From Aphrocallistes beatrix (lineage: Eukaryota > Porifera > Hexactinellida > Sceptrulophora > Aphrocallistidae): a DNA stretch of 64,000 bases. The position numbers and the translations under genes were made by a program. The number at the start of each line of letters is the position of its first letter. Positions within the stretch are counted from its first letter, which is position 1. The notes below the pieces were generated by a model, which was not told the origin of the DNA, did no database searches, and was given only the letters and a program-made list of their open reading frames with translations. The stretch spans positions 4,464,001-4,528,000 of the forward strand of contig OY725495.1 in the NCBI GenBank assembly GCA_963281255.1, written 5' to 3'. Positions 13,284-63,025 of the stretch are shown here, piece after piece.

Positions 13284-16170
13284 CTGAATCTTGCTCTCTT
13301 CCAATAATTCCAGCCAACATCTAAAAAAAACAAAAACGGAATGCTTCATAGCAGTTGACAGCTCCAAGCAAGCTTTCATCCAGGCGTACTGGGCGCGCCT
13401 AGAGGCGCGTATTTGATCCCATGAATCATAATTAGGCGTATGATTTTTGGAGGCTAGGCGCGAGGCATACGCCGAATTAGGCGCGTGCCATAAAACATAT
13501 ATAAAAATGCTATATAAAAATGAGTCTAGGCGCATAGAAAAATGGTGACGTCCATTTAGGCGTATGACCTTGGAAAGCTGGATGAAACCTTGGCTCCAAG
13601 TGTGTACCGACGAAATTTACGCACTTTCTTCGAAATTATTCTCCAACTTAGTAGTATGAGGAATTATTAAGAGCTATGCACCTAATCTAGAAAATTCACT
13701 GTTTTCTTAGTTTTTTGATTTGGTATTTGGATTCATTCGAAAAACAAAATTCTATTTAGACTCAGATTGATATGTACTGAATAATATACAAATTTATACA
13801 AATATAAAACCATCTTTGAAATCCGATAAAATTTTATATTTAGTTAAGACCTTGCATCTTCTGCAGACTCTGCCACGAAGTAATGAGATTTTCCTGAGAT
13901 TCTGATCACGAATCCGTTTTCTGGAGAGTAGTCTGGAGGAACAGCTGGTTTCCTGGGCTTCCAATCATCTTGATACCTCAACACTCCGTAGCAGCTGCCC
14001 ATCAGAAGAGTAGCCGCTACCTTCTTATCATAGTGCTTCACTTTCTCATAAATCTGAACTTCTCCTTCTCCCATAGCTACTAGACACTTCTCCCATTTCC
14101 CTGAAGCCCCATCAGCTGTAAGGTTGGACATAATTACATGCAATTTCATTATGGTCATAAGAGCAAATGTAACATTGCACATTTATTGAGAGAAAATAAC
14201 TGAAATATTCCCAACAATGGCGTGTTGCACAGTCAAATTACATTCAGATTGGTGCTTATTATTAAGAACCTGTAGCAACCTAGTGCTCTGGTGCCAAGTT
14301 GCAATTATCTTGAAAGTTAAACAATATGCGATGGGTATATAGAGATTGTGATGAAAACAGGAGAATATTTTTTTTTTGAAATTTTCGCTCCTCATACATT
14401 GTATATACCCCCTATAAATCAACACCCGAACTCCACTAAAAATCCTATTTTTGGAACTGTTTGCTACTCACTGTATTTGTGTGTCTGCAAGAATCCTAAT
14501 TTTAGATGCCTTCTTTTCATCTCTGGTAAATTTCCTGATTTGCTGAAACTAAATCTTCTAGCCACTTTTTCATATTTTCGTTCCTTCTTTTCCGTCCTTA
14601 CATCTTCCTAGAGGAGTATACAAACTGTACGAAACTTCAAATAATACGCACATATATTTTATCCCTACTGAGGAAAATCCATCACAACAATCTGTTAATT
14701 CAATCCGATTACTACGAAAGAATTTCGACCGTTCTCTGGCGTTTGTATAAAAGAGTTTATACTGTATTCCAAAAGAATTTACAACTGAAGGGAAATTATT
14801 CTTTAATCCCTAGCCTATGCGATAAATTATCGGAATGGCTAGGGTGAGGCAAACCCCAAAGTTCTGTTTTGATCTCAAATATAGGAATTTTTTTGCATAG
14901 CCTCGCTTTACTCATAAGATTATAACTATTGCCATAAACTTACCGGGCTTGCTTCTGTGAATTCTCGTGCAATTCTGTGTTCTGGAGTGTACTCAGGTTC
15001 TGATGAAGAAAGATATATTTCTGCGTCGAATTCCATGTGAGCTATTTTCATTTTCAGTAACTTCACTTCATTTACTAAACTCTCTACTTCTGTTTCCTTT
15101 TCCTGCATTTGATTTTCTAAACTTTCCACTTTTTTCGTTAAAGTTTCGTTTTCTTCTTCCTTTTTACGCATCTGTGTGTGCATAACGTTGATTCTATTCG
15201 AATAGTAGATTATAGTTTTCTCAAAGTGGCTTGACTCAAATTTCCTCTTGTGTTCTTCTAGCTCGCAACGCTTTACTGCTATTTCACATCCCATTTCCTT
15301 ATATGGACATGATACTAGCGTATTAGGACATTCTTTTTCAAGGTGTGACTCTATTTCCTTGCGGATGATACTTTTCAGACATTCGTTAGGACAGACTAAT
15401 GGGAATTCCAGACAGGATTTGTAGTGATTTTCTAAGGTCAATAACTGCATTGGAGTTCTGCAATATTTGCATCTGACCATTCGATGCTGGCATTCGTCTT
15501 TACGATGGTGTAAAATTATAGTTCTTTTCAACTTCATTCCACATTCATTGGGGCAATCAATTAAAGTGTTCGGACAATCCTTTTCAATGTGTGAGTTCAT
15601 TTCCTTGCGAAGAAAGGTTTCCTTACACTCGTTAGGACAGAGTAACGGTAACACAGGACAAGTGGTCAGATGAATTTCTACTTCTTTGTACTGCATTACG
15701 CCTTTGCAATGCATACAGTTAGCCACTCGATTCAGACACTCACTTTCGCAATGGTTCACCAGTTCAGATCTCTTCAGGATAACACCACACACATTTGAAC
15801 AGTTGACAATCAATTCACTACACTCATCTAAATGTGTGTCTATTTCTCGCATACTTCCCTTCCATATGCATCCTCTACCTGCTAAAGGGCACTTCGCCAT
15901 GAGCTCCTCTATTTCCTTTCTTGATTTTACCATCGACATTGACCTTCCATTTCCCACACACACCTCGCAAACGAGATTCTGTTCCTCGATTAAGCACGCT
16001 TTCCTCATTACTCCATTACATTTGGTGCAGATATACGATTTAGAATCGTCTCGACTTAATCTATCGGCCAAAAGATCTGGCTTGTATCCTCCATAAACGT
16101 CTTCTCTAGTTTTGACCAATAAAAGTGTTTGTTTGCAATCAATGGTGTTGTAAGTCTTCTCACTAGCCAT
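13284..16170 (-). CDS. TP1: half-RING, TRAF-type zinc-finger, coiled-coil, PH-domain protein
   Basis: Exons on the minus strand are 16170-14944, 14607-14472, 14115-13851 and 13320-13284 (phases 0, 1, 2, 0), giving 555 codons before an unresolved 3' end. Exon 1 (409 residues) has the cluster N-terminus, a half-RING (YICTKCNGVMRKAC then LVCEVC), eight TRAF-type zinc fingers beginning KCPLAGRGCIWKG and ending ACPYKEMGC-like (SCPYKEMGC), and a coiled coil. Exons 2-4 form a PH domain: HLKLGFL (first strand), KWEKCLVAMGEGEVQIYE, NGFVIRISGKSHYFVAES, and the C-terminal helix CWLELLEESK. Classical TRAFs are ubiquitin-ligase adaptors ending in a MATH domain; there is none here. It is the inverted partner of TP2. 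Exon 3 differs from TP2 at about four silent positions only. The finger at residues 209-236 has HHRKDEC where TP2 has DHCEDEC, so one ligand may be lost. Confidence 0.82.
13350..13605. mobile_element. inverted-repeat insertion in TP1 intron 3
   Basis: The left end GCTCCAAGCAAGCTTTCATC and the right end (reverse complement of CTGGATGAAACCTTGGCTCC) form imperfect inverted termini around a core rich in GGCGCG and AGGCGTATG. The TP2 intron at the same place is about 275 bp shorter and lacks it, so it inserted after the TP1/TP2 duplication. Confidence 0.6.
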
Positions 16171-16343
16171 TTGATAGTATCAACATATAATAATATTGGA
16201 AATCTATATGAACATATTCATGTATTTGCTATGTATATAAGCATCGTTAGTTTTAGTACTAGTGTCATATTACAGTCACGTCCTATAATTCCATTAATAT
16301 TATATCTGTGTATAAATTTCACAATTTTGATTATATAATTGTA

Positions 16344-16534
16344 TACAGTAGAACTCGGTTAGTACGTACTCGGGATGCAACGTACTTCGGCTTAGGACGT
16401 ACTCATTTCTATGAACCAGAATTCATTTATTATATAGATTCCTATGTAATCTTAAATCGGTTAGTACGTACTTACGGATAGTACGTACTTTTTCCGCTTC
16501 CCGGAGGGGTACGTACTAACCGAGTTCTACTGGT
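16344..16534. mobile_element. MITE family 3 copy between TP1 and TP2
   Basis: The ends are TACAGTAGAACTCGGTTAGT and CTAACCGAGTTCTACTGGTA. It shares blocks with the copies at 4537 and 53496. It lies in the 762-bp spacer between the divergent TP1 and TP2 start codons. Confidence 0.8.
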
Positions 16535-16932: not shown

Positions 16933-19673
16933 ATGGCTAGTGAGAAGACTTACAATACCATTGACTGCAAACAAACACTTTTATTGGTCAAAACTAGAGA
17001 AGACCTGTATGGGGGATACAAGCCAGATCTATTGGCCGATAGATTAAGTCGAGACGATTCTAAATCGTATATCTGCACCAAATGTAATGGAGTAATGAGG
17101 AAAGCGTGCTTAATCGAGGAACAGAATCTCGTTTGCGAGGTGTGTGTGGGAAATGGAAGGTCTATGTCGATGGTGAAATCAAGAAAGGAAATAGAGGACC
17201 TCATGGCGAAGTGCCCTTTAGCAGGTAGAGGATGCATATGGAAGGGAAGTATGCGAGAAATAGACACACATTTAGATGAGTGTAGTGAATTGATTGTCAA
17301 CTGTTCAAATGTGTGTGGTGTTATCCTGAAGAGATCTGAACTGGTGAACCATTGCGAAAGTGAGTGTCTGAATCGAGTGGCTAACTGTATGCATTGCAAA
17401 GGCGTAATGCAGTACAAAGAAGTAGAAATTCATCTGACCACTTGTCCTGTGTTACCGTTACTCTGTCCTAACGAGTGTAAGGAAACCTTTCTTCGCAAGG
17501 AAATGAACTCACACATTGAAAAGGATTGTCCGAACACTTTAGTTGATTGCCCCAATGAATGCGGAATGAAGTTGAAACGAACTATAATTTCAGATCATTG
17601 CGAAGACGAATGCCAGCATCGAATGGTCAGATGCAAATATTGCAGAACTCCAATGCAGTTATTAACCTTAGAGAATCACTACAAATCCTGTCTGGAATTC
17701 CCATTAGTCTGTCCTAACGAATGTCTGAAAAGTATCATCCGCAAGGAAATAGAGTCACACCTTGAAAAAGAATGTCCTAATACGATAGTATCATGTCCAT
17801 ATAAGGAAATGGGATGTGAAGTAGCAGTAAAGCGTTCCGAGCTGAAAGAACACAAGAGGAAATTTGAGTCAAGCCACTTTGAGAAAACTATAATCTACTA
17901 TTCGAATAGAATCAACGTTATGCACACACGGATGCGTAAAAAGGAAAAAGAAAACGAAACACTAACGAAAAAAGTGGAAAGGTTAGAAAATCAAATGCAA
18001 GAGAAGGAAACAGAAGTAGAGAGTTTAGTAAATGAAGTGAAGTTACTGAAAATGAAAATAGCCAAGATGGAATTCGACGTAGAAACACCGCTTTCCTCAT
18101 CAGAACCTGAGTACACTCCAGAACACAGAATTGTACGAGAATTCTCAGGACCAAGCATGGTAAAATCTAAATATTTAAGATCTCATTAACTAATAATTGG
18201 GTCTGAGCATCGAAACATAATTCCACCTCTAGTTGCACATTCTTCTCAAAATATCAGGGATGAAAACTGGGTGTGCTTATTTTGACAATCACAACTTCGT
18301 GATTGAGATACCAGAATAGCAGCTAAAAAGATTATTTTACTCAATAAAACTTTAAAAGGAGACTTTTGTTTTTCAACCATAAAGTGTCACCAATTATTGC
18401 TCTCAATTGGCACAAACCAATGACCAATCAGAAAGTAATATAAAATCCACAGTCTCACAAAAATTAATAAGACGGTTGCTTTAACTCCTGAAAATGAATA
18501 TATCATTACAGTTCTTGTTTTAACTAACTATAATTTGATAAATTTGTGTGTAATTATCTCCCTTCTCTAGGGTGATGCGAGAGCAGAAAATAAGGAACGA
18601 AAACAGCGGAAAAAGACCGGAGTTTTCCCGTTCAACAAACAAGAAAAATTACCAGAAATGAAAAAAGGGCATCTGAAATTGGGATTCTTGCAGACACATA
18701 AATACAGTGAGTAACGAGCAGGTCTAAAAATAGAATCCATCGACCTAAAACGACAAATCTACAGGTCCTAGCGACAGGGGCGGTCACAGGAATTTTCCAA
18801 ACCCGGGGAGGCGGGGCCAAAGAAAAAAATCCGGGGGCTTTACTATGGTTTTGACTTAAGTGGTCGAATGAAATCCGGCACTGCATAATCAACTCGGGGC
18901 AAATGCTCCGGATACACCCCTAGGACCTCCCTGCATACCGATCCTACCGATAGAACCGATTTCAATTGCACAATTTCAATTATTTAATTTAACTATTTCT
19001 AACTTTATAGCTGATGGCGCTTCAGGGAAATGGGAGAAGTGTCTAGTAGCTATGGGAGAAGGAGAAGTTCAGATTTATGAGAAAGTGAAGCACTACGATA
19101 AGAAGGTAGCGGCTACTCTTCTGATGGGCAGCTGCTACGGAGTGTTGAGGTATCAAGATGATTGGAAGCCCAGGAAACCAGCTGTTCCTCCAGACTACTC
19201 TCCTGAAAACGGTTTCGTGATCAGAATCTCAGGAAAATCTCATTACTTCGTGGCAGAGTCTGCAGAAGATGCAAGGTGAATAGTCTTAATTAATTAACTA
19301 AATATAAAAACTCTCGTAATATTGATATGCACTCTCAAATTGGAAATACAATTGAATTTTATTTGTCGCTTAGGCTATGAAATCTATGAACAAAATATGA
19401 CTTCGGTTGTACATCTATTAACTTAGTATACTAAAATAATTCCGAATAAATCAATATAATTTTGTTTGTGCATCTACAAGTATACATATATACCCAGCGT
19501 TCTCAAAGAAATTGTGTGTTTTTTTTCTAGTGAGTGGCTGGAATTATTGGAGGAAAGCAAGATGAAGGTCAGTATCTAAATCTGTATATATATATAATGT
19601 ATTGAGTTAGTAGGTACAAATCCCATTATCACGTGCACTTATGTAGAACTGTATGGTCAAGCCAATCAGTTGA
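16933..19673 (+). CDS. TP2: half-RING, TRAF-type zinc-finger, coiled-coil, PH-domain protein
   Basis: Exons are 16933-18159, 18571-18706, 19011-19275, 19531-19567 and possibly 19647-19673 (phases 0, 1, 2, 0), giving about 563 residues. The start is the ATG at 16933, which matches TP1; the frame is open further upstream but the conserved protein begins MASEKTYNTIDCK. Exon 1 encodes the half-RING (CTKCNGVMRKAC, LVCEVC), eight TRAF-type fingers and a coil with LENQMQEKETEVESLVNEV. Exon 2 ends HLKLGFLQTHKY, the first PH strand. Exon 3 encodes the rest of the PH sandwich and exon 4 the helix EWLELLEESK. Exons 1 and 3 are nearly identical to TP1, but exon 2 differs at about half of its 45 residues. 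The last exon is weak: an alternative frame downstream (about 19649-19777) is also open, so the true 3' end is uncertain. Confidence 0.82.
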
Positions 19674-20108: not shown

Positions 20109-23100
20109 ATGGCTAGCGCAAAGAACTTCAATACAGCTGACTCTAAACTACCACTTCTATTGGTTCAAAATGAAAAAGGTGAATATAGAGGGTATCGACA
20201 GGAATTGTTATCAAGATTTTTGAACGAACTCGAATTTGAATTGTATATTTGCACTAAATGTAATGGAATCATGCGAAATGCTTGCCAGATCGGAGACGAT
20301 CAAATCCTAGTGTGTGAGGTATGTGTGAAAAAAGAGGAAAAAAGTCAACCGATGGGAACATCTAGAAAGAAAATTCCCAAATTAAGCGTGAAATGTCCGT
20401 TAGAAAGCAGAGGATGTGAATGGGAGGGAGATATCGAGAACATCGATGCACACATAGATGTTTGTAAAGAATTCATCGTCGAATGTTGGAATATGTGTGG
20501 AGTCATATTGAAGAGATCTGAAATGACGGATCATTGTGAAGAAGTGTGCTTAAACCGAACAGTTAAATGTACACATTGCAAGGAAGAAATGTTATACATG
20601 GAGATAGAAACTCATTTTACAGTTTGTCCTGAATTCCCATTACTCTGTCTTAACGAATGCATAAAGTCGATTATTCGAAAAGAAATGGACTCACATATCG
20701 AAAATGACTGTCCTAACACGATAGTATTATGTGCGAATGGATGTGGATCAAAATTCAAAAGGTCTAAACTTTTAATTCACTGTGAGAAAAATTGTCAGCA
20801 TCGAAAAGTCAACTGTACGCATTGCAAGGTTGTGTTGCAATACAAAGAAATAGACAGTCATCTCACTACTTGTCCTGAGTTACCGTTACTCTGTCCAAAC
20901 GAGTGCATGAAAACCTTCCCTCGCAAAGAAATGAACTCACACATTGAAAAGGATTGTCCTAACACACTAGTGCATTGTATGAATGGATGCGGATTGAAAA
21001 TGAAGCGAAGAATACTTTCAACTCACTGTGAATACGAATGTCAGCATCGAAAAGTCAGTTGTGAATATTGTAGAACTACACTGAAATACAAAGAATTAGA
21101 AAATCACTACAAGCACTGTCTAGAATTTCCACTATTCTGTCCTAACGAATGTCAAAGACGTTTAATTCGCAAAGAAATATGGGAACATGTTAAAACAGAC
21201 TGTCCTAATACGATTGTTGTATGCCCATATAAGGAAATGGGATGCGAAATGAAGATCAAACGATGCGAGGTGCGAGAACATCAGGAAATGTTTAACTCTA
21301 AACACCTCGATATGACTGTGTTGTATTACTCTGAGAGAGAGAAGAAGTTTACTTCACAGCTGAAAGATAAAGATGAAGAAATCTCATGTCTAACTGACCA
21401 ATTGGAGGCTAAGGGGCTAGAAATGGAGAAAGTGAAAGGAGATAATGAAACATTAAGTGACACATTATTCTCTATGGAAATGAAGATGTTCGATAATCAA
21501 CAAGAAAATGAACGATTAATCGATGTGATCAGATTTTATGAAAATGAAAATAAGGAAGCAAGTATTCTCAAACTAGAATATGGAACTGAACCGAAACTAT
21601 CAGATTTACTAAGTGAAATGAAGGTAGGATAAATTAATGATACAAGTAATTAATCCCGTATATTCGTGCATAGCTGTATACTATGATGTAGAGCTGTATA
21701 CTATGATGCATAGCTGTATACTATGATGCAGAGCCGACTGCCACTGCACTACAACGGCCTACATGTCAAACGTCCCGTTATTGGCGGGAATTTTTCACTT
21801 TTCTATTGAGCTAATTTTGACGAGTGTCCCGTTTTCGATGAAATTTCTCCATTATGTTCCGATTTTGGGGATTAATGTATAATCTTTTCTATTGAGTACC
21901 ACCATATCCAGCGAAATTCAACGTAGCGTCCCGCTTATTCATGACTCAAGTTGGCATGTATGAATGTCATAATTCAGTTTTATTGTTAGAGAGATGAACC
22001 CAAACCGAAACCAGAACCAAAAGCAAAAGAAAAGAAAAAGTCAATAACGGAAAGAGAATTAGAGATCTTTACAGAAAGCCTGAAAACAGGATTCTTAAAC
22101 AGATATAGTGAGTCTTAATAATTAGTTTTATAGGAGCTATGGTAGAGACTTTTTATAGATGTTTTAAAAAATCAAATCTCAATGAAAAAATTTATGCAAG
22201 TTTTAAAATAGTATTCCTTATAGCTTCAGGCATAGTATCTAGCGGCTGGAAGAGGAAATTAGTGACATTGGAAGACGAGACACTCCATTTCTACAACACA
22301 ACACAGGAATTCAGTCTTCCTATGAGCAGACTTAAAGGAGTCTCTACGCATGTAGATGATGAAAATCCCAGAAAGCCTGGAATGCCTCCAAATAGCTCTG
22401 TGGAAAACGGATTTGTGGTTACAATTGCAGGAGGAACACACTACTTCGTAGCAGACACGAGGGAAGAAGCAAAGTAAATATTTTAATGTTATGATGAATA
22501 AGCATTTAACCCTTGAAAGCTTTGGGATTTTTCTATTTATAGTAGTGACCCCAAACGTGTATGGCTTCCCCATTGAAAATTGCTTAAACCGGAAATGCCG
22601 CAACACATTCCTGTGGCAAGCGTGGGTTTTAAAATTAGAACAGTATTATTAAGTGATTTCTGGTTCACACCTGAATATGTTATATAATTTTTCTTCAAAT
22701 AAATCTATTTTTATTTACTGGTATCTAAAATTAGTATAGAATTTTACAATACAGTTATTTATAAATATTGTTTTATTTAGGGAATGGATGGAACTATTGA
22801 GAGAGATCAGCAAGAAGGTCAGTATTAATTAAAAGCAAAGTTGACTAATTCAAGAATTATCAATGAATTACTCAAAATTTGAAACTAAAATAATGAAAAA
22901 AATATTTTATATTTCGCTTAGGGACTGAGCAATGTTAGAGGTATATAACATGAACAACCTTTTAACCACTTTTGGGCATAGAATCTGCACTAATGTTTGA
23001 GATTTTGAATAATTCATAATTCTTAATCATCTTTCAATGAATTAGTCAACTTAGATTAAAACCATTAATCAATCTTAATTAGTTTTCAACTAATATCTTA

Positions 23101-23177
23101 TTTCTCATGTTTAGAATTATAAAGCAAAGTCCGTGAAAAGAGCCAGTGTGAAACAAAGACCTAGCGAATCAAGTTAG
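20109..23177 (+). CDS. TP3: TRAF-type zinc-finger/PH protein with eleven fingers
   Basis: Exons are 20109-21623, 21990-22107, 22224-22473, 22781-22817 and 23115-23177, all with GT-AG borders and phases 0, 1, 2, 0, giving 660 residues. Residues 1-45 are the conserved cluster N-terminus (MASAKNFNTADSK). The half-RING is YICTKCNGIMRNAC followed by LVCEVC. Eleven TRAF-type fingers follow, built as an eight-finger protein plus one extra three-finger block, then a coil (LTDQLEAKGLEMEKVKGD). Exon 2 is longer than in neighbours and starts with a Lys/Pro-rich linker (RDEPKPKPEPKAKEKKK). The PH domain spans LKTGFLNRY, GWKRKLVTLEDE, ENGFVVTIAGGTHYFVAD and EWMELLREISKK. The last exon encodes NYKAKSVKRASVKQRPSESS, a basic, serine-containing tail. 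Intron 1 carries an R3 element and intron 3 an R1 element. Confidence 0.87.
21755..21965. repeat. repeat R3 copy in TP3 intron 1
   Basis: In reverse orientation to the 10835 copy, it ends CAAGTTGGCATGTATGAA and contains GTCCCGTTATTGGCGGGAAT and GTGTCCCGTTTTCGATGAAA. It is the most complete copy in the window. Just upstream, at about 21665-21735, a short unit AGCTGTATACTATGATG(C/T)A is repeated three times in tandem. Confidence 0.7.
22527..22640. repeat. repeat R1 copy in TP3 intron 3
   Basis: The blocks TTTTTCTATTTATAGTAG, TATGGCTTCCCCATTGAAAA and AAACCGGAAATG are in the same order as in copies at 5425, 33084 and 61597. It lies 50 bp after the PH exon donor. Confidence 0.7.
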
Positions 23178-23561: not shown

Positions 23562-23580
23562 GTGAGAAGCAGAATTCACA

Positions 23581-25247: not shown

Positions 25248-28200
25248 ATGGCTAGTGCGAAGACATACAATGAAGTTGATTGTAAGCAGCAGCTCCTATA
25301 TATCGAAATAGAGAAAGGTGAATATGGAGGTTATAGACAGGATTTATTAGCAAATAGTTTGAGTGAAGTGGAAATAGATTTTTACATCTGCACTAAGTGT
25401 AATGGACTATTGAGAAACGCCTGTATGGTTGGAATTGATCAGAGTCTAGCCTGTGAGACATGCGTGGTAGAAGGAGAAGCATTTCAGCCAATGGTTAAAT
25501 CAAGAAAGAAAATTCCTGAGTTAGGTGCAAAATGTCCGTTGTCGAGTAGAAAATGTGTGTGGAAGGGAATTATTGGTGAAGTTGAAGCACACTTAGATGA
25601 ATGCACTGAATTAGTTGTCAATTGTTTTAATAAATGCAGCGTTATTCTAAAGAGATCTGAACTGATGAATCATTGTGGAAACGAATGTCTAAATCGAAAG
25701 GTTAACTGTATGCATTGCAAGATCATATTCCAATACAAAGAAATAGACAATCATCTCACTACTTGTCCTGAGTTACCGTTACTCTGTATTAATGAGTGTA
25801 TGGAGACCTTTCTTCGCAAAGAAATGAACTCACACATTGAAAAGGATTGTCCCAACACGATAGTGAATTGTATGAATGGATGCGGATTGACAATGAAGCG
25901 AAGAAAAGTTTCAATTCACTGTGGAAACGAATGTCAGCATCGAAGAGTTAACTGTATGCATTGCAAGGTTGTAATGTTATACAAAGGAATAGACAATCAT
26001 TTCACTACTTGTCCTGAGTTACCGATACTCTGTCCTAACGAATGTATGGAAACTCTTCCTCGCAAAGAAATGAACTCACATATTGAAAAGGATTGTCCTA
26101 ACACGATCGTATCTTGTCCGAATAGTTGTGAAGTGATAATGAAACGAGTTAAACTTTTAACTCACTGTGAAAACGAATGTCTGCATCGAATTGTTAACTG
26201 TGAATATTGTGGGGCTACACTGTTACAAAAAGAATTAGAAAATCACTACAAATCCTGTCTAGAATTCCCATTATTCTGTCCTAACAAATGTCAAAGAAGT
26301 CTAAAGCGCAAAGAATTAGAGTCACACATCGAAGAAGAATGTCCTAATACATTCGTAGCATGTCCATATAAGGAAATGGGATGTGATGTATTAACCAAAC
26401 GATGCGAAATAAAGCAACATGAGAAACTTTTCGAATCCAATCACCTCGAAATAACTGTAATATATTATTCAGACAAAGTTAAAAGTATGGAGACTCTTTT
26501 CAAAGATAAAGACATGGAACTTGAGAATATGGAGACACTATTTAAAGGTAAGGAAAGGGAACTTAACAGTATGGAGACTCATTTCAAAGATAAGGAAAGG
26601 GAACTTGAGAATATGGAGACACTATTCAATGATAAGGGAAGGGAACTTGAGAATATGGAGACTCTATCCAAAGATAAGGACATGGAAATTGATATTTTAA
26701 CTAGCACGGTTAAAACTGTGGAGGCTCAAATGAGCGAAGAAGAAAGAATTAACGAACGATTAACTGAAGAAGTTATGACTTTAAAGAATTGGCTTCTAAC
26801 TGAGATAAAATCTAAGCTAATATATAAGAATTCCAGATTCAATGAAAAGCCTGAGATGTTTTCAAAGAGGAAACAATTCTTAGAGGTAAGACTTTGCTAA
26901 AATATAATAACTACCCTAAAAAATAATATCTTCAAAATAATTGCTTCCTCAAAAAGGAATAATGTGGTAAAATTAATCCAAACTTTTCAGGAGGAGAAGA
27001 GGTAGATAATCTGTATACTAGAGAAATGCTACTATCTTTTTAATGTGTAACACTTATTATTGGAGATACGCGTGCCTTATGTCCAGGGGTGTAGTGCAGA
27101 GGAACAGCGTTCCCTCACATATTTCCAAAGAGTGAGCGTGTTTAACATTTTCCTTGGCGGATCGGTACAGTTGCCTTATTCTTTCGCAATATTATGTACG
27201 AGCGGCGATCGCAAAACCTTTGTGACATTTATAGATATGTTCATGTCCTACTGACGTTTTGGTGTAAAATACATTTTACAGGCACTCCCCACTTTAATTT
27301 TGAGTACTATACCACTGCTTGTGAGGAGTGAAAGGAATGTAACGTTCGTTTTTCGTAAGTTTGTCTGCTTATTCCTGGAAAATTAGATCGAATTGCCTTA
27401 AATTCGAATCATATTTCTTTATATGTTGGAGATTTGCATCTAGGGGCAAATTTCTTAAATATTTACTCTTTTTCACAGGAGGAGTATTAGTTAATCAAAA
27501 TAATTTACAATACAGCTTCCTTTGTAAAATTGATTGATAGAAATTAAATCTAATGACCAATAGAAATTGGACCTAAACAAGCTATAGTCACTCTCTGAAC
27601 TTTTTATTGATTATAAATTCAATTCTACGAGTATTTCTTCATTTTTAACTTTTTCATTTTTCATTTTTATTTATTATTTAATTAGCACGAAGTTTTACCA
27701 GATAAAAGAAATGAGCATATGATAATTGGATTCTTACATAGATATGGTAAGTATTACATTTTCTTAGAATACCATTGAAATGAGTACATTAAAAATGTCG
27801 GTCGACAGACCGATAGTGCAACTCCATTAAAGGCATTATTCCTATTGCTCAATAAAGTTAAAGCCAACTGTAATATTAAATCCCCTTAATTTCAGCACAA
27901 ACAAACAAACAAAAAACAAAAAAACCATTGCGTTTTAATATATAAGATAGTACACAACACATACCTTGATTGTTGTTAAGGTTACTCGAAGTTGTTTGAG
28001 TTGTTCAAATATAATAATATTGTGAATTTTGTAGATTCAAATTAACATCACATTCTTGGATTAGTTAGCTATATAATTAAGCAAATTCCATTTATCATGA
28101 ACTAAATTTACTTCTCCAGTTCTGAATTCATGATTAACCATGGATAAATGACATTTTTGAATGGATAGTTAGAAAAGCAATCGACCGTTATTGAATATCC

Positions 28201-29310: not shown

Positions 29311-29638
29311 GCTTTAGTTTAGTGACCCAATTTTTAAATGGAATAAATTTCATTCTATTTTGAAATAAGCAAAGTATCACTTAAAGTATGAACATACATT
29401 TTATTGGCTATCAGGACAGTAGCTGTTCCAGAGATTTTAATTAGGAAAGCAAACTTAAATTCGACTGTCTTAGAATAAGAAGACCAGTGTTAACGTCGGG
29501 GCGTAGTCAGGATTTTGGACCGTGGGGTCATAAGCAAGCGAAGCGAGCAAATGTGGGGACTTGACCCCCAGAACTTTTCAAATCTTAGATGCTGAAATAT
29601 CGATCTACAGCCTTACAGCCTTAATATCTACAAGCGCG

Positions 29639-31492: not shown

Positions 31493-31493
31493 T

Positions 31494-32417: not shown

Positions 32418-32480
32418 AATTATTTTATTCTGGGTAAATTTCAATTGATCTACCTTCTCGTTGCTAGACAGCAGGTTACT

Positions 32481-50400: not shown

Positions 50401-50862
50401 CTCCATTGAATTAATGTTATTTCACTAATCGAAGCAAATTCACAAATCCAAACGATCTTTTCTATCATTGATTCAGATTTGTTCGGATCAGCGAGCGTAG
50501 GCACCGAACCCGGGGGGCTGGGGAGGCTCGAACCTCCCCTGGATTCGAAGTTACTCCATACACGCAATACAAAATTTAGAGCTGAGCCCCCCTGGAACCC
50601 CGAAATAGTCCTTAGATTTCGAAAAGTTCGGCGAGTTCGGTGTACCGTAGTACTAATCTAGCAAGCACTGACCATTTTACTCGGATTTTTACCTATAACT
50701 CGTAAATTATTCATATTATATAGCTTTATTGGGAAAAAATCTCTTTACAAGAACATTTCAATTAATCTGTCAAAAGTAAGAGTGGGGGATCTAATTGTCT
50801 TTTTATTTTTTATCTTTCATTATAGGCAATGGATGGAATTATTGGAAAATATCAGGAAGAGA
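47457..50862 (+). CDS. TP7: TRAF-type zinc-finger/PH protein, eight fingers
   Basis: Exons are 47457-48800, 49679-49799, 49975-50242 and 50826-50862 (phases 0, 1, 2, 0). A stop-containing last exon was not found, so the 590 codons are a minimum. The start is ATG in GATATGGCTAC; the protein begins MATITKSYNEIDCK. The half-RING is YICTNCNGLSRNAC with LTCEMC. Eight TRAF-type fingers follow; the second has NHWENEC where relatives have NHCENEC, which removes one possible ligand. The coil is longer than in TP5. Exon 2 has an extra charged linker (IKTKPDSEGNKTEKM). The PH domain has LKIGFLNRY, GWWRSLVAMEDGAYHIYN, NGFVVRVSGKLNYFLADT and QWMELLENIRKR. Intron 1 carries a MITE family 1 copy and the local repeat AGTGGTAAGACCAT at 49520-49630. 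Confidence 0.83.
49041..49213. mobile_element. MITE family 1 copy in TP7 intron 1
   Basis: The left end TACAGTCGACTCCGCTTAAT is perfect. The right end AAGCGGAGTCGATTTTA is degraded. The interior matches the copies at 3310 and 23581. Confidence 0.8.
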
Positions 50863-52077: not shown

Positions 52078-55000
52078 ATGGCTTATGGGAAAACATATAA
52101 CACAGTTGATTGTAAGCAACAACTATTGTTGATTGAAGTGAAAGAGGGTAAGTATGGAGGATATAGACAAGACTTGTTAGTCAATAGTTTGATTGACGTT
52201 GAAACAGATTTTTATATTTGTACGAAATGCAATGGAGTAATGAGAAATGCTTGTCAAATCGGAGATGAACAGAATCCATTTTGTGAAATATGTGTAGAAG
52301 AGGGAAAACAGTCTCAGCCGATGGTTAAGTCGAGAGAAAATATATCCGGACTAAGGACAAAATGTCCCTTAACTAGCAGAGGATGTGAATGGGAAGGAAG
52401 TTTGGGAGAAATCGATTCGCATTTGGACGAGTGTCCCGAACTAATTGTAAACTGTTCAAATATGTGTGGAATAATCCTGAAAGAATTTGAACAAACAAAT
52501 CATTGTGAAAAAGAATGTTCGAATCGAATGGTCAGCTGTGGATATTGTGAAGCTACAATGCGACACAAAGAATTAGAAAATCACGACAAAGTTTGCCTAG
52601 AATCCCCAATAATCTGTCCTAACCAATGTCTGAAAAGTTTGGTTCGCAAAGAAATGGAGCTACACGTTGAGAAAGAATGCCCTAATACACTCATAGCATG
52701 TCCATATAAGGAAATGGGATGTGATGTATTAGCCAAACGATGTGAAGTAGAGCAACACGAGAAACTATCTGAATCAAGTCACCTCGAAATGACAGTCTCA
52801 TATTACTCTATTAAAGTGGAGAGAATGGAAGTAGAAATAGAAAATAAAGAGAAAGATAATGAAAAATTAGTTGGCGAGGTGGAAAATCTGATGAGACAGA
52901 TTGAGGTAAAAGAAGTACAGCGATTATTTGCTGAAGATAGGCCTAATAAAGGACAGAAATTTAAAAAGTCTTCCTACCCCATTTTACCATTCGAGTCTGA
53001 AACCGGATCACTAATAAGACCTCGATTAAAAGCCAATAAGGTATTTAAATACATTTTATTCTATTTTTAATGTTGTAATTCTCAAATTTTAAAAGCAGTT
53101 ACCGTCTTTCCATGAATAATCACCCCGGCGCTTTTTTTCGTGCTCAAAAGTCCCTGGAACTCAAAAGTTAAAGCGCTGTATCGGTCGAAAAAAGTCGCAT
53201 TTGGAGAGATAAACGATTTATAATCTCATTACTAATCACTAAGAGTATTCATAAATACAACTAGCCATAACAAATGGTTTACCTTAAATGTTCGCATATT
53301 ATCTAACCCCCGACGCTTATTCAAGGAAGACGGTTGATGTAATTTACAAATTTTATTTCTTAACAGCTTCTTCATAAGAGTAGACAAACTTTCAGTGGGG
53401 AGTTTTACCTTTTACCAGAAAAGAGAGAAGAACATTTGAAGATCGGATTTTTAGACAGACATAGTAAGTACAAGTATAATGTCAATTCTATTACGTACGG
53501 TAGAACTCGGTTGTACGTACTCGAGATAAGACGTAGTACTTCGGCTTAGGGTACGTACTAATTTCTCTGAACCAAAATTCATTTATTATATAGATTCCTA
53601 TGTGATACCAACTCTGCTAGTACGTACTGTTTTCTGATTCCCGGAGGGGTACATCTTATCCGAGTTCTAATGTATATTTTTGAGACCAAAATAGAACTGT
53701 TGGCATGTATGAGCATATATACAGACAGGATTAATCAAGCAGGCATATGCGTAGATTTTAACCAATGTACAGGGGACTCCGCTTAATCGAGACACTTTGG
53801 TCCCGAATATTTTGTCCCAATTAAGCGGAGTTCCCAATTAACCGATGAAATTTAGTATTAGCATCTATGTATAGGAACCATTTCGTTCCTGGAGACTTGT
53901 CCCAATTAAACGGTTGTCCCGATTAAGCGGAGTTGACTGTAGTTCTAAAATTTTCATAGGCTCCTATTTGGTAATTAAATGCATAGACTAGACACACGAA
54001 AATAATCAGAGGGATGTTTTAGAGGATTATCCCAGAAAGGCTCGACGAAATCCTGTCTACAGGTATACAATTTAACTTCTGCAATAAGGTTCCCATCAGT
54101 TTTTGAATATTTCTGCTAGTAATGATAGGTAACATTTCTATAGCTCCAGGCTCGAGTGGGTGGACAAGAACCTTAGTAGCATTGGCAGATGGTGCACTCC
54201 ACTTCTATAACACAGCTGAGGATTACGATGCAAAGCCTACAGACACTCTCCAGATCAGTGAGTGTGATGGAGTCCGCTCTTATGCAGATGATAAAATACC
54301 TAAGAAGCTTAAAGTTCCACTAAGCTCTGCTTCCCAAAACAGATTTGTGATCAGAATGAATACGAATTATTTCATTGCAGACACATTTGAAGAGGCAATG
54401 TGAGCATTTTGAAATTACTCTGTTATGAAATTTAAATTATACAGGATCCCTTGTTCTCGATCGGATTGCGGCGGAATCTCACTTACAAAGTCCGCTCCTT
54501 CGTTCGTCTGGGAAGCTTTGAGGTTTCGCTTGTGTTTGTAACTGGAATAGTCAGCTTATAATCATTATTTTATTTAGGGAATGGCTGGAACTTTTAGTGG
54601 AAAGCTGGTTAATGGTAAGCATTACACGGTAAATCTCAAAATTCTGTATTTTATATTTCATCTATATCTATAGCAATACAAGGAAAAACTCACTCAAATA
54701 CCGATACCAAGATCAGGTGAGTGATGGAGTCATGGTCCCAACACCTTGAAACTTGAAAGCAGAAATGTATTCTACGTAAATACCTCTAATTTCTAAATAA
54801 TTTTGTGACGTATTTTCAAGGGAGTAAGAATGAGTAATATTTCATTATTTTTAACGTTTAAATATACGAGCGTATGAGTCAAAAATTAACAGTTTTCGAA
54901 GATGAATGAAATAGTGCTATAATTGCCAAATACAGTTGACTCCGCTTAATCGGGACACTTTGGTCCCGGATATTTTGCCTCAATTAAGCGGAGTGAATTA

Positions 55001-55963: not shown

Positions 55964-58900
55964 ATGGCGAGTGGAAAGGTACATAATGCATCTGACTGCA
56001 ATCAAAAACTGTTACTGATTCAATTTAAAAATGGGCAATACGGGGGCTACAAGCAGGATTTACTGCTGCATAAATTGAATGATCTTGAGCTTGACTTCTA
56101 CGTTTGCACGAAATGTAATGGAATTATGCGAAACGCTTGTTTGAATAGAGATGGACGCAATCTGGTTTGTGAGATGTGCGTTGATGACGGAGAAGAGTCG
56201 ATAGTACCGATGATTAAATCAAGAGATAAGATAGCCGAACTGAATGCTAATTGCCCTTTAGAGAAAAGAGGATGTGTTTGGAGGGGAAAACTAAAAGATA
56301 TTGATGATCACTTGAATGCGTGCCAAGAATTCGTTGTTGATTGTCTCTACTCATGTGGAGTTATGTTAAAACGATCTGAATTGAAGAATCATTGGTTGAA
56401 CGAGTGTCTACATCGAAAAGTCAATTGTACACACTGCGAGTTAGTGATGTTATACGAAAAACTTGAATTACACTTCACGATTTGTCCTGAATTCCCATTA
56501 CTCTGTTCTAACGATTGCAAGGAAACATTTCCTCGAAAAGAAATGACTTCACATATTGAAAATCAATGCCCTAACTCCAACGTGTATTGTAGGAATCATT
56601 GTGGATCGAAATTGAAGAAATTTCAATTATCAGATCACTGTGAAAATGAATGTCAACTTCGTAAGGTCAAATGTACACATTGCGAAGTCGTAATGAAGCA
56701 TAATGAGACGGAAAGTCATCTCAAAATTTGTCCGAACTTTCCATTACTCTGTCCTAACGAGTGCATGGGAACTTTTCTCCGCAAAGCAATGGCCACTCAC
56801 ATTGAAAAGAAGTGTCCCTACACAGTATTGGATTGTCCGAACGAATGTGGGTCGAAAATGAAGCGATCAAAGCTTTCAAATCACTGTGAAAACGAATGCC
56901 AGCATCGAGAAATCAAATGTAAATTTTGTGAAGTTTCAATGCGATACAAAGATCTAAAAACTCATCACAAAACCTGCCTACAATTCCCAGTAGTCTGCCC
57001 TTACGAATGTCTGAAAAGTCTGATTCGCAAAGAATTAGAGTCACACATAAAGAATGAATGCCCTAATACACTCGTAGTATGCCCATATAAGGAATTGGGA
57101 TGTGAAGTGTTATGCAAAAGGTGTGAACTACCAGAACACGAAAAGAAATACGAATCTAAACATCTCAAAATGAGAGTATTATATTATTCTGACAATAATA
57201 AAAAGATGGAGAAACAACTTCAAAATAAAGAGATGGAAATTGTAGAATTAAATGGAAAGGTAAAGGATTTAGAAAACTCAAAGGGCAATGCTGAAAAGGC
57301 CAATCAAGTCATGATATTAGAATTAAAGAAAAAGGACAAAGAAAACGAAAATCTGAAGGATGAAATAAAAAGTTTGTATCTGATAATAAAGTGTAAAGCC
57401 GAGGAAGTTGATTATTTAACTAAACAGATCAAACGTCGTGATGACTTACATATTTCCCCAGATCTTTCAGGAGCAAGAAAGGTAATGAATCCGGGTTAAA
57501 CACGGAGTAGTTCAAAGGAATTCAAATAACAGGGCCTTTTGTGCTCCAAATCTCTTTTTTGAAATGGTCTGCACGTGCGAATACCTATGCCACTCTTGTG
57601 TGTCATTAAAATTACAATGAACAATCATAGCTAGTTCACAAGTTATTCCTTGCAATAAACCAAGCATTTCAAGTGCAATCTTATGTCAAAAAACACTATA
57701 GTACTTAAATTATAAATAACACTGAAGCATTGTAACTCGATTACTGCAGTTACTTCACAATTCATAATTATTCTATTCTTAGAAAGACGATTCCAAATCG
57801 AAACTAGGTCCAAGGAAAGTAGGAAACACAAGAAAAGAACCTAAACCAGAAGTCTTACCAGTAAAGAGACTAAGAGATTTGAAAATTGGGTTCCTATACA
57901 GATATGGTGAGTACCAGTTGTCTAATGAGAAAAAATTCCACATTTCCAATCAAAGTTGTTTCTGACTAAATTCTGCCAGCGATTTACGTTGCCTAAGTTG
58001 CAAAATTCATTTTTTGATTGGTTCTTAAAATTTCATAGCTCAGAAATATATTAAAATGTGCGACAATGGAATTATGTATAGATGAGTTTGCATTTTGATC
58101 AGATACGTTAAGATTATTCTGATTATCACATTTTAGTTGTTGGAATATTCGAAAATCGATGGGAACGAAATCTGGTGTCTCTCACTCCTGGTGGTCTCTA
58201 CGGTTACAACACAGCTGATGACTACGTGAATACTGTGGTAGGAGATGTAATATGCTTCTTTACTCTCGGTGATAGAGTATCAACTTACAGAGATGATCAA
58301 ACTACGGAAAAGCCAAAGATACCTCCTGGCTGCTCAGAAGATGATGGATTTGTGGTGAAAACAGTTGGAGCGTCGAATTACTTTATTGCGGATACTATGG
58401 AAGATGCTAAGTGAGTTAAGCTAGTTAATACTGAGTATCGTCATCAAGCAACTTTGAAATGGCAACTAATTCTTGGATGAAAACCAACCCTGATTTTAGC
58501 AACAAAACAAAAAACACTTACGCGCCTGTATAATATTAAATTTATTAATTATTTATAATACTATAGGGAATGGAAAGAACTGCTATTTGTAATCAAAAAG
58601 AAAAAATACATGGTAAGTGAAAGATACTCAATTCATATATTGAGGAGTAATTGCTAAGACAATTATAACTATGTATATCATATAGTGCTCAAGTTTCCAA
58701 TCTTAACAGATATTTGATTTACATGACAGGTCAAGTCAACATGTTCAATCTATCCCTGCTCACTAAATAACTTACCAACAAACACTCTTTAAAGAGATTC
58801 TTATCCTAAAATAGTCCTTGTAAATGCTCATATATTATCTAGAATCAATATTAAAGTTCTATTTACAATTGCATTTGCATCTAAAATTCTCTGTATTATG

Positions 58901-59112: not shown

Positions 59113-60405
59113 TTATTTAAAAATATACCACATTACCAAAAAGATGCATACAATATATAACGCAATATACAATATAGGAATTGGTTGGTCTCTCCTCTGC
59201 AATTCGGTTTCCAGATTGTGTACTCTATCAGTTAATCCTCTATTGTGGTTGAGCGTATCTTGCAATTGGATTTGTACATATTCCACTTGATAATCTAATT
59301 GTTGGATAAGTTGATCTTTATTTCCTAGTTCTATTGCCATATTTCTAATTCTCTCTGCCAACTGTATATTGTTCATATCATTATACTGCAGCTGTATTCC
59401 CATGTGTCTCAGTTGCTCAGTTAATTGTTCACAAATCTGTTCTTTATTCTGAATTTCTGTCCCCATAAACCTCACTGTCTCAGTTAATTCTTGGTTATTT
59501 TTGTCCTTATTCCGCATTTTAAATTCTATATCTTTGACTTGTGTGATCAATTCTTCATTGTCTTTCGCCTTATTCTGCATTTGTATTTCCAAATTTGTTT
59601 CTTTGACCGTTAAACGTTCGATTTTTTTCCCTTTATTTTGTACCTGGTTTTCCATTTTCTCTACTCTGTCAGTATAATACAACACAGTTATATCCAGGTG
59701 CTTAGATTCAAATGCTTTCTCGTGTTCATGTATTTCGTACCGTCTGCAAATTACCTCACAACCCATCTCCTTATAAAGACATGCTACTAGTGTATTGGGG
59801 CATTCTTTTTCAATGTGTGATTCTAGTTCTTTGCGAATCAAATTTCTCAGACATTCGTTAGGACAGACTAATGGGAATTCTAGACAGAGTTCGTAGTGAT
59901 TCTCAATGTATTTGTATGCTATCGCGATCTTACAATGTATGCAGTTAACTGTTCGATTCAGACATTCATTTTCGCAGTGATTCATCAATTCGTATCGTTT
60001 CAAGTTAACGCCACACAAATTTGAACAATTTACAACATATTCCATGCATTCATCTGAATGAATGTTGATTTCCCCTATATTCCCTTTCCAAACGCATCCT
60101 CTCCTTTCTAAAGGACATTTCACCCTTATGTTGGCTATCTTTGCTCTATATTTTAACATCGTTATAGTATTTCCCTCACCTTCGAGTATACAAGTCTCAC
60201 ACATCAAATTTTGTTCATCTCCGACTAAGCAAGCGTTCCGCATTATCCCATTACACTTAGTGCAAATATATGATTCAATTTCAATCTCATTTAAACTGTC
60301 AGCTAATAAATCCAGTTTATACCCTCCATACTTACCTTTCCCTATTTCAATTAACAAAAGTTGTTCTTTATTATCAATTGCGTTGTATGTCTTTCTCCCA
60401 GCCAT
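59113..60405 (-). CDS. TP10: TRAF-type zinc-finger protein with repeat coil and C-terminal membrane anchor
   Basis: This is a single-exon 430-residue frame from an ATG to a stop. It has the cluster N-terminus (MAGRKTYNAIDNK), half-RING (YICTKCNGIMRNAC, LMCETC), five TRAF-type fingers (KCPLERRGCVWKG to ACLYKEMGCEV) and a long coiled coil from about residue 245. The coil is made of roughly six 21-residue (three-heptad) repeats such as VRFMGTEIQNKEQICEQLTE. Instead of a PH cassette it ends in a hydrophobic segment, IPILYIALYIVCIFLVMWY, followed by two residues, the layout of a tail-anchored membrane protein. It is the only complete member without a PH domain and lies opposite to TP9. In finger 5, ACLYKEMGC has Leu for the usual Pro but keeps its cysteines. 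A damaged second copy of its 3' half is at 62540-63025. Confidence 0.87.
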   Translation of the reverse strand: MAGRKTYNAIDNKEQLLLIEIGKGKYGGYKLDLLADSLNEIEIESYICTKCNGIMRNACLVGDEQNLMCETCILEGEGNTITMLKYRAKIANIRVKCPLERRGCVWKGNIGEINIHSDECMEYVVNCSNLCGVNLKRYELMNHCENECLNRTVNCIHCKIAIAYKYIENHYELCLEFPLVCPNECLRNLIRKELESHIEKECPNTLVACLYKEMGCEVICRRYEIHEHEKAFESKHLDITVLYYTDRVEKMENQVQNKGKKIERLTVKETNLEIQMQNKAKDNEELITQVKDIEFKMRNKDKNNQELTETVRFMGTEIQNKEQICEQLTEQLRHMGIQLQYNDMNNIQLAERIRNMAIELGNKDQLIQQLDYQVEYVQIQLQDTLNHNRGLTDRVHNLETELQRRDQPIPILYIALYIVCIFLVMWYIFK

Positions 60406-60940: not shown

Positions 60941-61895
60941 AAAGACGTGGTAAAGGAACATAAGCCAGAAGTCTTACCAGTTAAGAGACCAGAAGATTTG
61001 AAAATTGGGTTCCTATACAGATATGGTGAGTACCAGTTGTCCAACTAGACTGTATTTTTGATCAGAATTGATCTAAATTTTGATCAGAATCATAATATTT
61101 CAATAGAAATTCCACATTTCCAATAAAAGTTGTTTCTGACTAAATTCTACCAGCGATTTACGTTGCAATAAGCTGCAAAATTCTTTTTTTGAATAGCTCA
61201 GAAAGATATTAAAATGTGTGACAATGGAATTATGTATAGATGAGTTGGCATTTTGATCAGATACGTTAAGATTATTCTGATTATTACATTTTAGTTGTTG
61301 GAATATTCGAAAATCGATGGGAACGAAATCTGGTGTCTCTGACTCCTGGTGGTCTCTACAGTTACAACACAGCTGATGACTACGTGAATACTGTGGTAGG
61401 AGATGTAATATGCTTCTTTACTCTCGGTGATAAAGTATCAACTTACAGAGATGATCAAACTACGGAAAAGCCAAAGATACCTCCTGGATGCTCAGAAGAT
61501 AATGGATTTGTGGTGAAAACAGTTGGAGCGTCGAATTACTTTATTGCGGATACTATGGAAGATGCTAAGTGAGTTAACCTGCGCTTGGCTAAGTGATTTT
61601 TCTATTTATAGTCAGAGCCCAAACTTGTTTGGCTTCCCCGCCCAAAATGGCTTAAACAGGAAATGACGCTACAAAACACCTCGCCAAGCGCGGGTTTTAA
61701 GCTAGTTAATACTGAGCATCGTCATCAGCAACTGTGAAACGACAACTAATTCTTGGATGATAAGCCAACCCTGATTTTATCTACAAAATCAAAAATACTT
61801 GCGCCTGTACGTATAATATTAAATTTATTAATTATTTCTAATACTATAGAGAATGGAAAGAACTACTATTTGTAATCAAGAAGAAAAAATACATG
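60941..61895 (+). CDS. orphan PH cassette, duplicate of TP9 exons 2-4
   Basis: Exons 60941-61025, 61295-61568 and 61850-61895 have intact GT-AG borders and frame (phases 0, 1, 2, 0). They encode LKIGFLYRY, RWERNLVSLTPGGLYSYN, NGFVVKTVGASNYFIADT and EWKELLFVIKKKKYM. It is nearly identical to TP9 in the PH part; the linker in exon 2 is shorter (KDVVKEHKPEVLPV). No zinc-finger exon precedes it on this strand. It may be spliced from TP9 exon 4 to give a second PH domain, or be a remnant. The equivalent of TP9 exon 5 has lost its acceptor AG (TTTCTACG at about 62250), which fits use as an internal cassette or decay. Confidence 0.6.
61597..61700. repeat. repeat R1 copy
   Basis: TTTTTCTATTTATAGTCAG, TTTGGCTTCCCCGCCCAAAA and AAACAGGAAATGACGC mark it. 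It interrupts the intron of the orphan cassette; the TP9 intron lacks it, so it inserted after the duplication. Confidence 0.75.
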
Positions 61896-62539
61896 GTAAG
61901 TAAAAGATACTCAATTCATATATTGAGCTACGGAGTAATTGCTAATATAATTATAACTATGTATATCATATAGTGCTCAAGTTTCCAATCTTAACAGATA
62001 TTTGATTTACATGACAGGTCAAGTCAGCATATTCAATCTCTCCCCGCTCACCAAGTAACTTACCAACAAAAACTCTTCTTAAAGAAATTCTTTTCTTAAA
62101 ATAGTCCTTGTAAATTTTTTCATATATTATCTAGAATCAATATTAAAGTTCTATTACAATTGCGTTTACAATTCTTTGTGTTATGCAACTTATACTTGAT
62201 GTGTCGAAGAATATCAACACATACGAATACGTGCTTATTTATTTCTACGTTAAATGGATCAAATAAGGTGTTATTAACTTAAATATTTTATCCTTGAACT
62301 ACCAAAATCCATTTCGTATCACTACTTTACCAGATTCAGATAATCTGGATTGTTGTGAGTTGTAGTAACACACTAGTCATAGATTTACTTGTATTTCTAT
62401 TGTTCTAGTAAATACCTGTCCAAGTTCAATATACATAAAAAATAGAATACCAAGACCGCAACTACAGCTACTACAATTGAAACTACAATTGAACCAAGTT
62501 TAGTATGACAGTACAATTTTTTATTTGCTAGTATTTGAA

Positions 62540-63025
62540 AATGCAACCGATTACCAATAAGATAATCAAAAAATATTTAGTTCTTATCAAGTTCCTGGTC
62601 TCTCCTATGCAATTCGGTAGCCATAGTACTTACTCTATCAGTCAATGCTCCATTGTAGTTGAGCGTATCTTGCAATTGGTTTTGTACATGCCCACTTGAT
62701 GATCTATTTGTTGGATAATTTGATCTTTATTTTCTACTTCCTTTGCCATATTTCTCACTCTCTCTGCCAACTGTCTATTGTTCCTATCTGTATTCTGCAG
62801 CTGTATTCTCATTTGTCTCAGTTGCTCAGTTAATTGTTCACAAATCTGTTCTTTATTCTGAATTTCTGCCCCCATAAACCTCACCTTCTTAGTCAATTTT
62901 TGGTTATTTTTGTCCTTATTCCGCATTTAAATTTTAGATCTTTGACTTGGTTATTTAATTCTTCATTGTCTTTTGCCAATTGAATTTCCAAATTTGTTTC
63001 TTTGACCGTTAAGCATTCAATGTTT
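62540..63025 (-). pseudogene. truncated, frameshifted copy of TP10 coil region
   Basis: The minus strand matches TP10 from the coil (KETNLEI region near 63000) to near its C-terminus. The zinc-finger half is missing. The central stretch encodes KVRFMGAEIQNKEQICEQL. One base is missing relative to TP10 (TGTACATGCCCACTTGA here, TGTACATATTCCACTTGA in TP10), which shifts the frame before the membrane segment. Together with the orphan PH cassette it shows that a block covering TP9 exons 2-5 and the TP10 3' half was duplicated. Confidence 0.8.

Follow-up and report, generated by a model that had tools for sequence, protein, structure and literature searches.

In TRAF1–TRAF6 an N-terminal RING region is followed by TRAF-type zinc fingers, a coiled coil and a C-terminal recognition domain; TNF and Toll signals converge on these proteins as on a hub, and the C-terminal MATH domain is usually taken as their defining part. 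What kind of protein, then, is encoded by a gene cluster of the glass sponge Aphrocallistes beatrix in which TRAF-type fingers were predicted to lead into a pleckstrin homology (PH) domain instead? The cluster lies in a stretch of 64,000 nucleotides (assembly GCA_963281255.1, contig OY725495.1, positions 4,464,001 to 4,528,000), hereafter the window, whose own numbering is used below. We regard the TRAF-finger plus PH architecture as near certain, and we put at roughly 0.6 the probability that these are real tandem-duplicated genes for non-catalytic TRAF-like scaffolds with exchangeable PH heads.

Between 13.3 and 60.4 kb of the window, the stop-to-stop list of open reading frames (ORFs) holds ten TRAF-type zinc-finger ORFs (g1–g10), and a genome search gave a zf-TRAF match (PF02176) over cut-off at all ten loci, confirming the ten-gene cluster of the original prediction; the five exons scanned singly (g1, g2, g3, g4 and g10) scored 70.9–158.8 bits against a cut-off of 27. 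Nine of the ten genes (g1–g9) are followed on the same strand by a PH cassette, as had been claimed, and the window holds 11 such cassettes in all, g5b and g11 being additional to the original count. The tenth gene, g10 (59113..60405, minus strand), is apparently single-exon and combines zinc fingers and a coiled coil with a hydrophobic C-terminus and no PH domain; its 19-residue hydrophobic stretch has a mean hydropathy of 2.59, where the best stretches in the other 11 models reach 0.74–1.21, in agreement with the membrane anchor proposed for it. None of the 122 MATH_2 matches in the genome falls in the window, and the finding of TRAF fingers, coiled coil and PH domain together upholds the view that a PH domain stands where TRAFs have MATH.

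The PH identity of the tail emerges most clearly when its exons are joined. Scored singly, the PH exons stay below the curated Pfam cut-off for PH (PF00169, 25.1 bits), at 18.6 (g1, exon 3), 16.4 (g2), 22.4 (g3) and 12.5 bits (g4). Splicing lifts the last three to 31.6, 42.6 and 25.0 bits, and five of the eight spliced cassettes scanned (g2–g9) exceed the cut-off, namely g2, g3, g5 (31.1 bits for its first PH), g6 (28.9) and g8 (26.2). Against PDB sequences, the g6 PH alone found six matches with E ≤ 1 (Myosin X, pleckstrin four times and PLEKHA5), and a profile of the 11 cassettes found four distinct sequences with E ≤ 0.01, titled Myosin X and Slm1, whose chains we take to be PH constructs. 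For the main PH exon only (exon 3; 17 copies as input), with strand 1 and the C-terminal helix outside the folded piece, AlphaFold gave a model with a pLDDT of 88.1. Its Foldseek ranks 1–19 are all PH folds, 16 of them titled PH and the others (3nsu_B, 2j59_M and 2j59_O) presumably so, and the top match is the DAPP1 PH domain complexed with inositol phosphate. The tryptophan of the C-terminal helix is conserved without exception in the 11 cassettes. Both checks proposed with the original prediction, Pfam on spliced models and structure prediction (here for the exon-3 model), thus point to a PH domain. None of the 117 matches listed by a six-frame genome search with PF00169 lies at the cluster PH loci, and annotation of unspliced sequence could therefore miss these domains. 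Derivation of the PH domain from MATH was rejected, with an hhalign probability of 0.15% when the PH profile was compared with four MATH domains of this genome.

The PH region is predicted to comprise three exons after the zinc-finger exon, with introns in phases 0 (exons 1/2), 1 (2/3), 2 (3/4) and 0 (4/5). The constant phases 1 and 2 described originally do belong to the two introns splitting the PH fold, and to these must be added the further phase-0 introns that flank it (1/2 and 4/5). On the minus strand, g1 (13284..16170) has its zinc-finger exon at 14944–16170 and PH exons at 14472–14607, 13851–14115 and 13284–13320, in an open four-exon frame of 555 aa. All remaining PH genes are on the plus strand: g2 (16933..19567; exons 16933–18159, 18571–18706, 19011–19275 and 19531–19567), g3 (20109..23177; 20109–21623, 21990–22107, 22224–22473 and 22781–22817, with a probable exon 5 at 23115–23177), g4 (25248..29310; 25248–26885, 27686–27746, 28301–28568 and 29057–29093, probable exon 5 29179–29310), g5 (33674..41380; 33674–34942, 35452–35518, 35731–35995, 37174–37210 and a fifth exon at 37300–37521), g6 (42767..45805; 42767–44008, 44456–44522, 44836–45103 and 45596–45632, probable exon 5 45719–45805), g7 (47457..50862; 47457–48800, 49679–49799, 49975–50242 and 50826–50862), g8 (52078..54724; 52078–53040, 53367–53463, 54144–54399 and 54578–54614, probable exon 5 54674–54724) and g9 (55964..58612; 55964–57481, 57783–57906, 58137–58410 and 58567–58612). 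Joined exons 1–4 are stop-free in g1, g2, g3 and g5–g9, and g4 stays open as far as its terminal stop when the exon-3 donor of its paralogues is used. Exon 4 closes with another phase-0 donor; a fifth exon with the shared start [HNQ]YK was found in six of the 11 cassettes (g3, g4, g5, g5b, g6 and g8) and not for g1, g2, g7, g9 or g11, and the models of g3, g4, g5, g6 and g8 containing it have a single terminal stop each.

The joins themselves are best seen at exon 2, a short exon carrying strand 1 of the PH fold that was recognised as a conserved island inside introns. In all 11 cassettes its frame opens at the phase-0 acceptor, or in g8 a codon ahead of it, and because the acceptor TAG doubles as an in-frame stop in ten of them, exon 2 is readable there solely after splicing. 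All nine zinc-finger exons have a phase-0 GT close to the end of their ORF, those of g2 (GTAAAA), g8 (GTATTT) and g9 (GTAATG) being weak donors. We infer from these sequence features that zinc-finger exons are spliced to PH exons in vivo. The fifth exon of g5 begins with the usual start, continues with sequence that by eye resembles the exon-1 coil and ends at a phase-0 GTAAGA donor; the next in-phase acceptor leads into a second PH cassette, whose exon 2 starts at 37961. Once joined, the frame is stop-free for 744 residues through the second exon 4, or 775 with the last exon, all its junctions being GT-AG. On this model g5b (plus strand; 37961–38027, 38596–38863 and 41159–41195, probable last exon 41285–41380) appears to be the second PH of g5, in one double-PH gene, for which a deletion joining g5 to a former neighbour would be the simplest account.

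Finger number and coil length differ among the cluster genes, and the front end is recognisably that of a TRAF. The exon-1 model of g6 (pLDDT 84.3) has TRAF6 structures as its first two Foldseek matches (5vo0_D, E 1.8e-7; 3hcs_A, E 2.0e-7), ranks 1–4 being TRAF6 or TRAF5/TRAF6. The coiled coil expected between fingers and C-terminal domain is present in this model as one helix (residues 315–397), and it would make the cluster proteins oligomers. Five cysteines, C49, C52, C60, C70 and C73 (C49xxC52...C70xxC73), are invariant in 26 aligned family members; in the same alignment the second zinc site of a RING is represented by neither an invariant His nor a second Cys pair before C97, and no RING family is among the Pfam hits of the five exons scanned. 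The half-RING that had been proposed is therefore real in the sense that one zinc site is kept, in 26 of 26 members. The E2 contact of TRAF6 includes a hydrophobic residue lying between cysteines 1 and 2; at least 90% of the 26 aligned members have Lys at this place, so that E2 binding would be disfavoured. Because half of the RING is missing, ubiquitin ligase activity of the cluster proteins seems unlikely.

The cluster is not a self-contained family of ten. When the best 150 of 323 candidates found with the first 119 residues of g4 were scored, 50 reached at least 117 bits and the next 92.3 bits, so that the family counts no fewer than 50 close relatives, whose C-termini are of several kinds. 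A PH exon lies downstream in 14 of the 50, nine in the window, four at 4.56–4.57 Mb of contig C9 and one at 12.15 Mb of contig C1, and a genome search for the PH exon returned 17 rows, namely 11 in the window, the five elsewhere just mentioned and a further one at C9:4.845 Mb. The C1 gene (L018:2666–4294) is a dispersed copy whose first exon seems to shift frame in the last finger. The C9:4.845 Mb gene (L019:2867–6482, C9:4.843–4.846 Mb) has the same PH exons in phases 0, 1 and 2, with a phase-0 donor after exon 4; its exon upstream of the PH is rich in Pro, Glu, Ala and Lys and has a phase-0 donor, and no zinc-finger row lies near it among the matches listed. As the same cassette sits in a gene without fingers, exon shuffling is likely to have spread it, and the exon-3 tree, with nine of 13 inner branches open, does not show the direction between this gene and the TRAF cluster. 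For 44 front ends, drawn from the window and from 20 stretches elsewhere, the tree requires seven changes of PH label, at least three of them forced by well supported branches; some of the seven may be only apparent, since the label 'other' covers unassigned tails, among them those of relatives on contigs C14 and C7, for which neither a PH in the stretches examined (one chance-level row, E 0.85) nor a joinable tail in the ORF lists was found.

Other tails are present in the same family. Two relatives on contig C17 (L026/L027, C17:3.648–3.668 Mb) have matches to a ubiquitin protease domain (UCH), one of 151.2 bits and one, a fragment, of 22.7 bits, under the cut-off of 23.9. The protein at L027:2110–4761 (minus strand), with an intact-looking Cys box and several further USP-like ORFs around it, has the N-terminus and fingers of the cluster proteins and falls inside the family in the 44-row tree, but differs from them in this tail. 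The copy at L026:8168–9562 has Asp at what we take to be the position of the catalytic Cys. Relatives at C9:4.04–4.08 Mb (L022–L025) share a different domain of some 120 residues at the C-terminus (11 matches with E ≤ 0.01, six of them below 1e-12) without a Pfam hit in the four ORFs scanned; a divergent MATH domain is not supported there, with an hhalign probability of 1.9%. Ordinary TRAF-like genes coexist with the family, 114 of the 122 MATH_2 matches being over cut-off. C9:4.16–4.43 Mb holds another large cluster, made up of relatives that are more distant; it includes many of the 100 rows of 54.6–92.3 bits, and a few of its members have weak MATH matches. Near TRAF-finger relatives at C7:0.29 Mb, one ORF (L028:1–1785, minus strand) joins an E2 domain (100.2 bits) to a U-box (56.7 bits) and is perhaps an all-in-one E2-E3.

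Whether fingers and head evolve as parts of one functioning protein can be judged from the paralogues. Distances in exon 1 (N-terminus) and PH exon 3 correlate among the nine genes with r = 0.79 (0 of 5000 permutations as high), and with r = 0.76 without g1 (9 of 5000). For the pairs g4/g5, g4/g6 and g5/g6, omega is 0.19, 0.50 and 0.23 in the N-terminus and 0.25, 0.33 and 0.23 in the last fingers, versus 1.28, 0.95 and 0.49 in PH exon 3. Purifying selection on the g4/g5 zinc-finger parts is significant (p 7.7e-6 and 2.6e-4, respectively), and the contrast between platform (0.19–0.50) and head (0.49–1.28) among g4–g6 counts in favour of scaffolds with exchangeable heads. Further PH-exon omegas are 2.16 (g4/g5b), 1.32 (g5b/g6), 0.83 (g5/g5b), 0.37 (g7/m18) and 0.45 (g9/g11), and g1 and g2 have zero amino-acid changes in the PH; all these pairwise values come from small counts, and omega above 1 is significant in none of the tested pairs.

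Several observations weigh against that reading. The spliced PH regions of g7 (15.2 bits) and g9 (14.9 bits) score well below the Pfam cut-off and that of g4 just below it, and the best Foldseek E-value for PH exon 3 is 8.6e-3, none reaching 0.001, as may be expected because the fragment lacks strand 1 and the C-terminal helix. Congruent distances would also be expected if two neighbouring genes had been duplicated as one block. The three g7 pairs lack the contrast (PH 0.30, 0.33 and 0.34; N-terminus 0.28–0.32; last fingers 0.29–0.44), and their dS is 1.10–1.39 in the PH versus 0.31–0.50 in the front end. Since dS is thus two- to fourfold greater in the PH exon, front end and PH of g7 do not have one simple history in common, a hint of gene conversion in the fingers or of exchange of the PH cassette. 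A PH omega near 1 could mean decay, and oligomerisation and an immune role are themselves predictions.

Taken to its end, part of this evidence would make the zinc-finger and PH genes separate neighbours duplicated together, the architecture being an artefact of manual splicing. The exon joins do come from sequence-based models, no zinc-finger exon immediately precedes g5b, g11 or the C9:4.845 Mb cassette, the exon-1 donors include weak ones, and front end and PH of the g7 pairs have unequal dS. However, exon 2 opens at its acceptor only, in all 11 cassettes, and in the very phase offered by the GT donor of all nine zinc-finger exons, and the pairing recurs beyond the window, in four genes of L016/L017 and one of L018; we consider separate neighbours most improbable. 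A decaying cluster without function is scarcely more credible: the shifted exon-1 frame of the C1 copy, truncated copies in L013 and L015 and the omega near 1 of some PH pairs would fit it, but open frames and splice sites across exons 1–4 are kept in nine of nine window genes and the g4/g5 zinc-finger parts are under purifying selection.

Within the reading as scaffolds with exchangeable PH heads, it matters more what the head binds. The original prediction saw membrane-recruited adaptors in ubiquitin signalling. Its ubiquitin part gains indirect support because in the close C17 relatives this front end is joined to a ubiquitin protease domain, and a ubiquitin link of the cluster proteins may be envisaged. 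The membrane part fared less well. Phosphoinositide-binding PH domains have (K/R)-x-R in strand 2 as their signature; searched for after the strand-2 tryptophan, an invariant Trp column, this signature was found in none of 17 PH copies, the nearest being K-R-K in g3. With the basic signature missing in 17 of 17, membrane recruitment is without sequence support, and phosphoinositide binding by the cluster PH is possible but unsupported. We therefore weighed a head that, like the g10 anchor, places the scaffold on membranes via phosphoinositides against one that binds proteins, a PTB- or FERM-F3-like recognition head diversifying among paralogues, perhaps against microbial or host partners. The PH fold itself, the anchor in place of the PH in the paralogue g10 and the first Foldseek match, a DAPP1 PH with inositol phosphate, speak for the membrane, and the missing signature speaks against it, leaving that option rather doubtful. 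The same missing signature favours protein binding, as do PTB and FERM folds at Foldseek ranks 20, 33 and 34 and the high PH omegas of g4/g5, g4/g6, g4/g5b and g5b/g6. On the other hand, the canonical signature is missing from many PH domains that do bind lipids, g10 as a close relative with an anchor at the same position suggests a membrane role, the g4/g5 omega above 1 is not significant (Fisher p 0.56), and the PH is under purifying selection in the g7 and g1/g2 pairs. We rank the protein-binding head slightly above the lipid-binding one, as a prospect a little short of even odds.

The cluster proteins thus resemble TRAF1–TRAF6 in having fingers after a RING region, then a coil and a C-terminal domain, with TRAF6 as best structural match; they differ in a RING that keeps Cys positions 1, 2, 5 and 6 only, in often more numerous fingers and in a C-terminal PH instead of TRAF-C/MATH. 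The TRAF front end tolerates either loss of the RING, as in TRAF1, or a different C-terminus, as in the WD40 domain of TRAF7, and unlike these two, neither of which has a PH domain, the cluster proteins carry one. In the same genome, a TRAF-like gene on contig C4 (L010) has zf-TRAF as the cluster does (74.2 bits), but in frame with TRAF/MATH (113 bits). The tail resembles the PH domains of DAPP1, Slm1, pleckstrin and Myosin X in sequence or structural matches and departs from them in its lack of the canonical phosphoinositide signature and its fusion to TRAF fingers. The architecture is a reshuffling of known domains in one lineage. We know of no described TRAF-finger plus PH family. Such a protein did not appear in the literature searched either, which took in portions of PMC10282587, PMC10280926 and PMC8242945 and lay mostly outside subscription journals; words beginning with 'TRAF' number zero in the main text of two glass-sponge genome papers (PMC10282587, PMC10280926). 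Lipopolysaccharide elicits a response from genes annotated as TRAF2, TRAF5 and TRAF6 in the demosponge Halichondria panicea (PMC8242945). An immune role is plausible for this reason, and by analogy the cluster probably takes part in the sponge's response to microbes.

Other elements of the window bear on the history of the locus. The g11 cassette (60941..61895, plus strand; 60941–61025, 61295–61568 and 61850–61895) has no zinc-finger exon of its own and nearly duplicates the cassette of g9; at 62481–62879 (minus strand) the coil and anchor from the 3' end of g10 recur as an 81% copy, and together they suggest a duplicated block starting inside g9 intron 1. Between g4 and g5, a relic of a zinc-finger first exon lies at 31489–31638 (plus strand; GGYRQDLLANSLSEV). 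A dispersed repeat with similar short translations (ALRLLALRGW / ARLADT) occurs at 29534–29826 and 31152–31364, and also in L020 and L030. Neighbouring genes are Mitoguardin (9502–10440, plus strand, 305 bits), a hydrophobic-looking 400-aa protein without a Pfam hit (6613–7812, plus strand), histone H2A (11570–11998, minus strand) and, within the cluster, an FKBP (32418–32804, plus strand). On the mitochondrial contig C28 (17,996 bases), an ORF that we take to be atp9 is present, and cox1 has 14 TGA and no TGG, 42 ATA against 14 ATT, and 16 AGA, several of these at what are presumably conserved serines. Hexactinellid mitochondria are characterised by AGR as serine, retained atp9, preferred ATA and nearly absent TGG (PMC2267718), traits that agree with those of C28 and point to a glass sponge as its source.

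If the reading as scaffolds with exchangeable heads is correct, half-RING and TRAF fingers would form a conserved platform and the coil an oligomer, with a PH head at the MATH position gained as a three-exon cassette. With phase-0 introns on both sides, such a cassette can move between genes with the reading frame intact. The fingers would hold partners and the tail would set the location or the partner of the oligomer; as half of the RING is missing, an adaptor or competitor is expected and not a ligase, an action that may be like that of TRAF1. More broadly, and tentatively enough to fall somewhat below even chances, a glass-sponge TRAF-finger chassis may have lost ligase function and, through repeated exchange of C-terminal modules (the PH as a phase-0 cassette) and tandem duplication, acquired PH, double PH, membrane anchor, ubiquitin protease and the domain of about 120 residues as heads, yielding a large family of scaffolds and erasers of ubiquitin signals for microbe discrimination in a syncytial animal. 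The locus would offer phase-matched exon shuffling of a cassette with both contexts on one contig, and a natural series of constructs for testing TRAF fingers that lack both MATH and a working RING. If a lineage retains these fingers but has several times exchanged what stands at the MATH position, it would reveal which half of a TRAF serves as platform.

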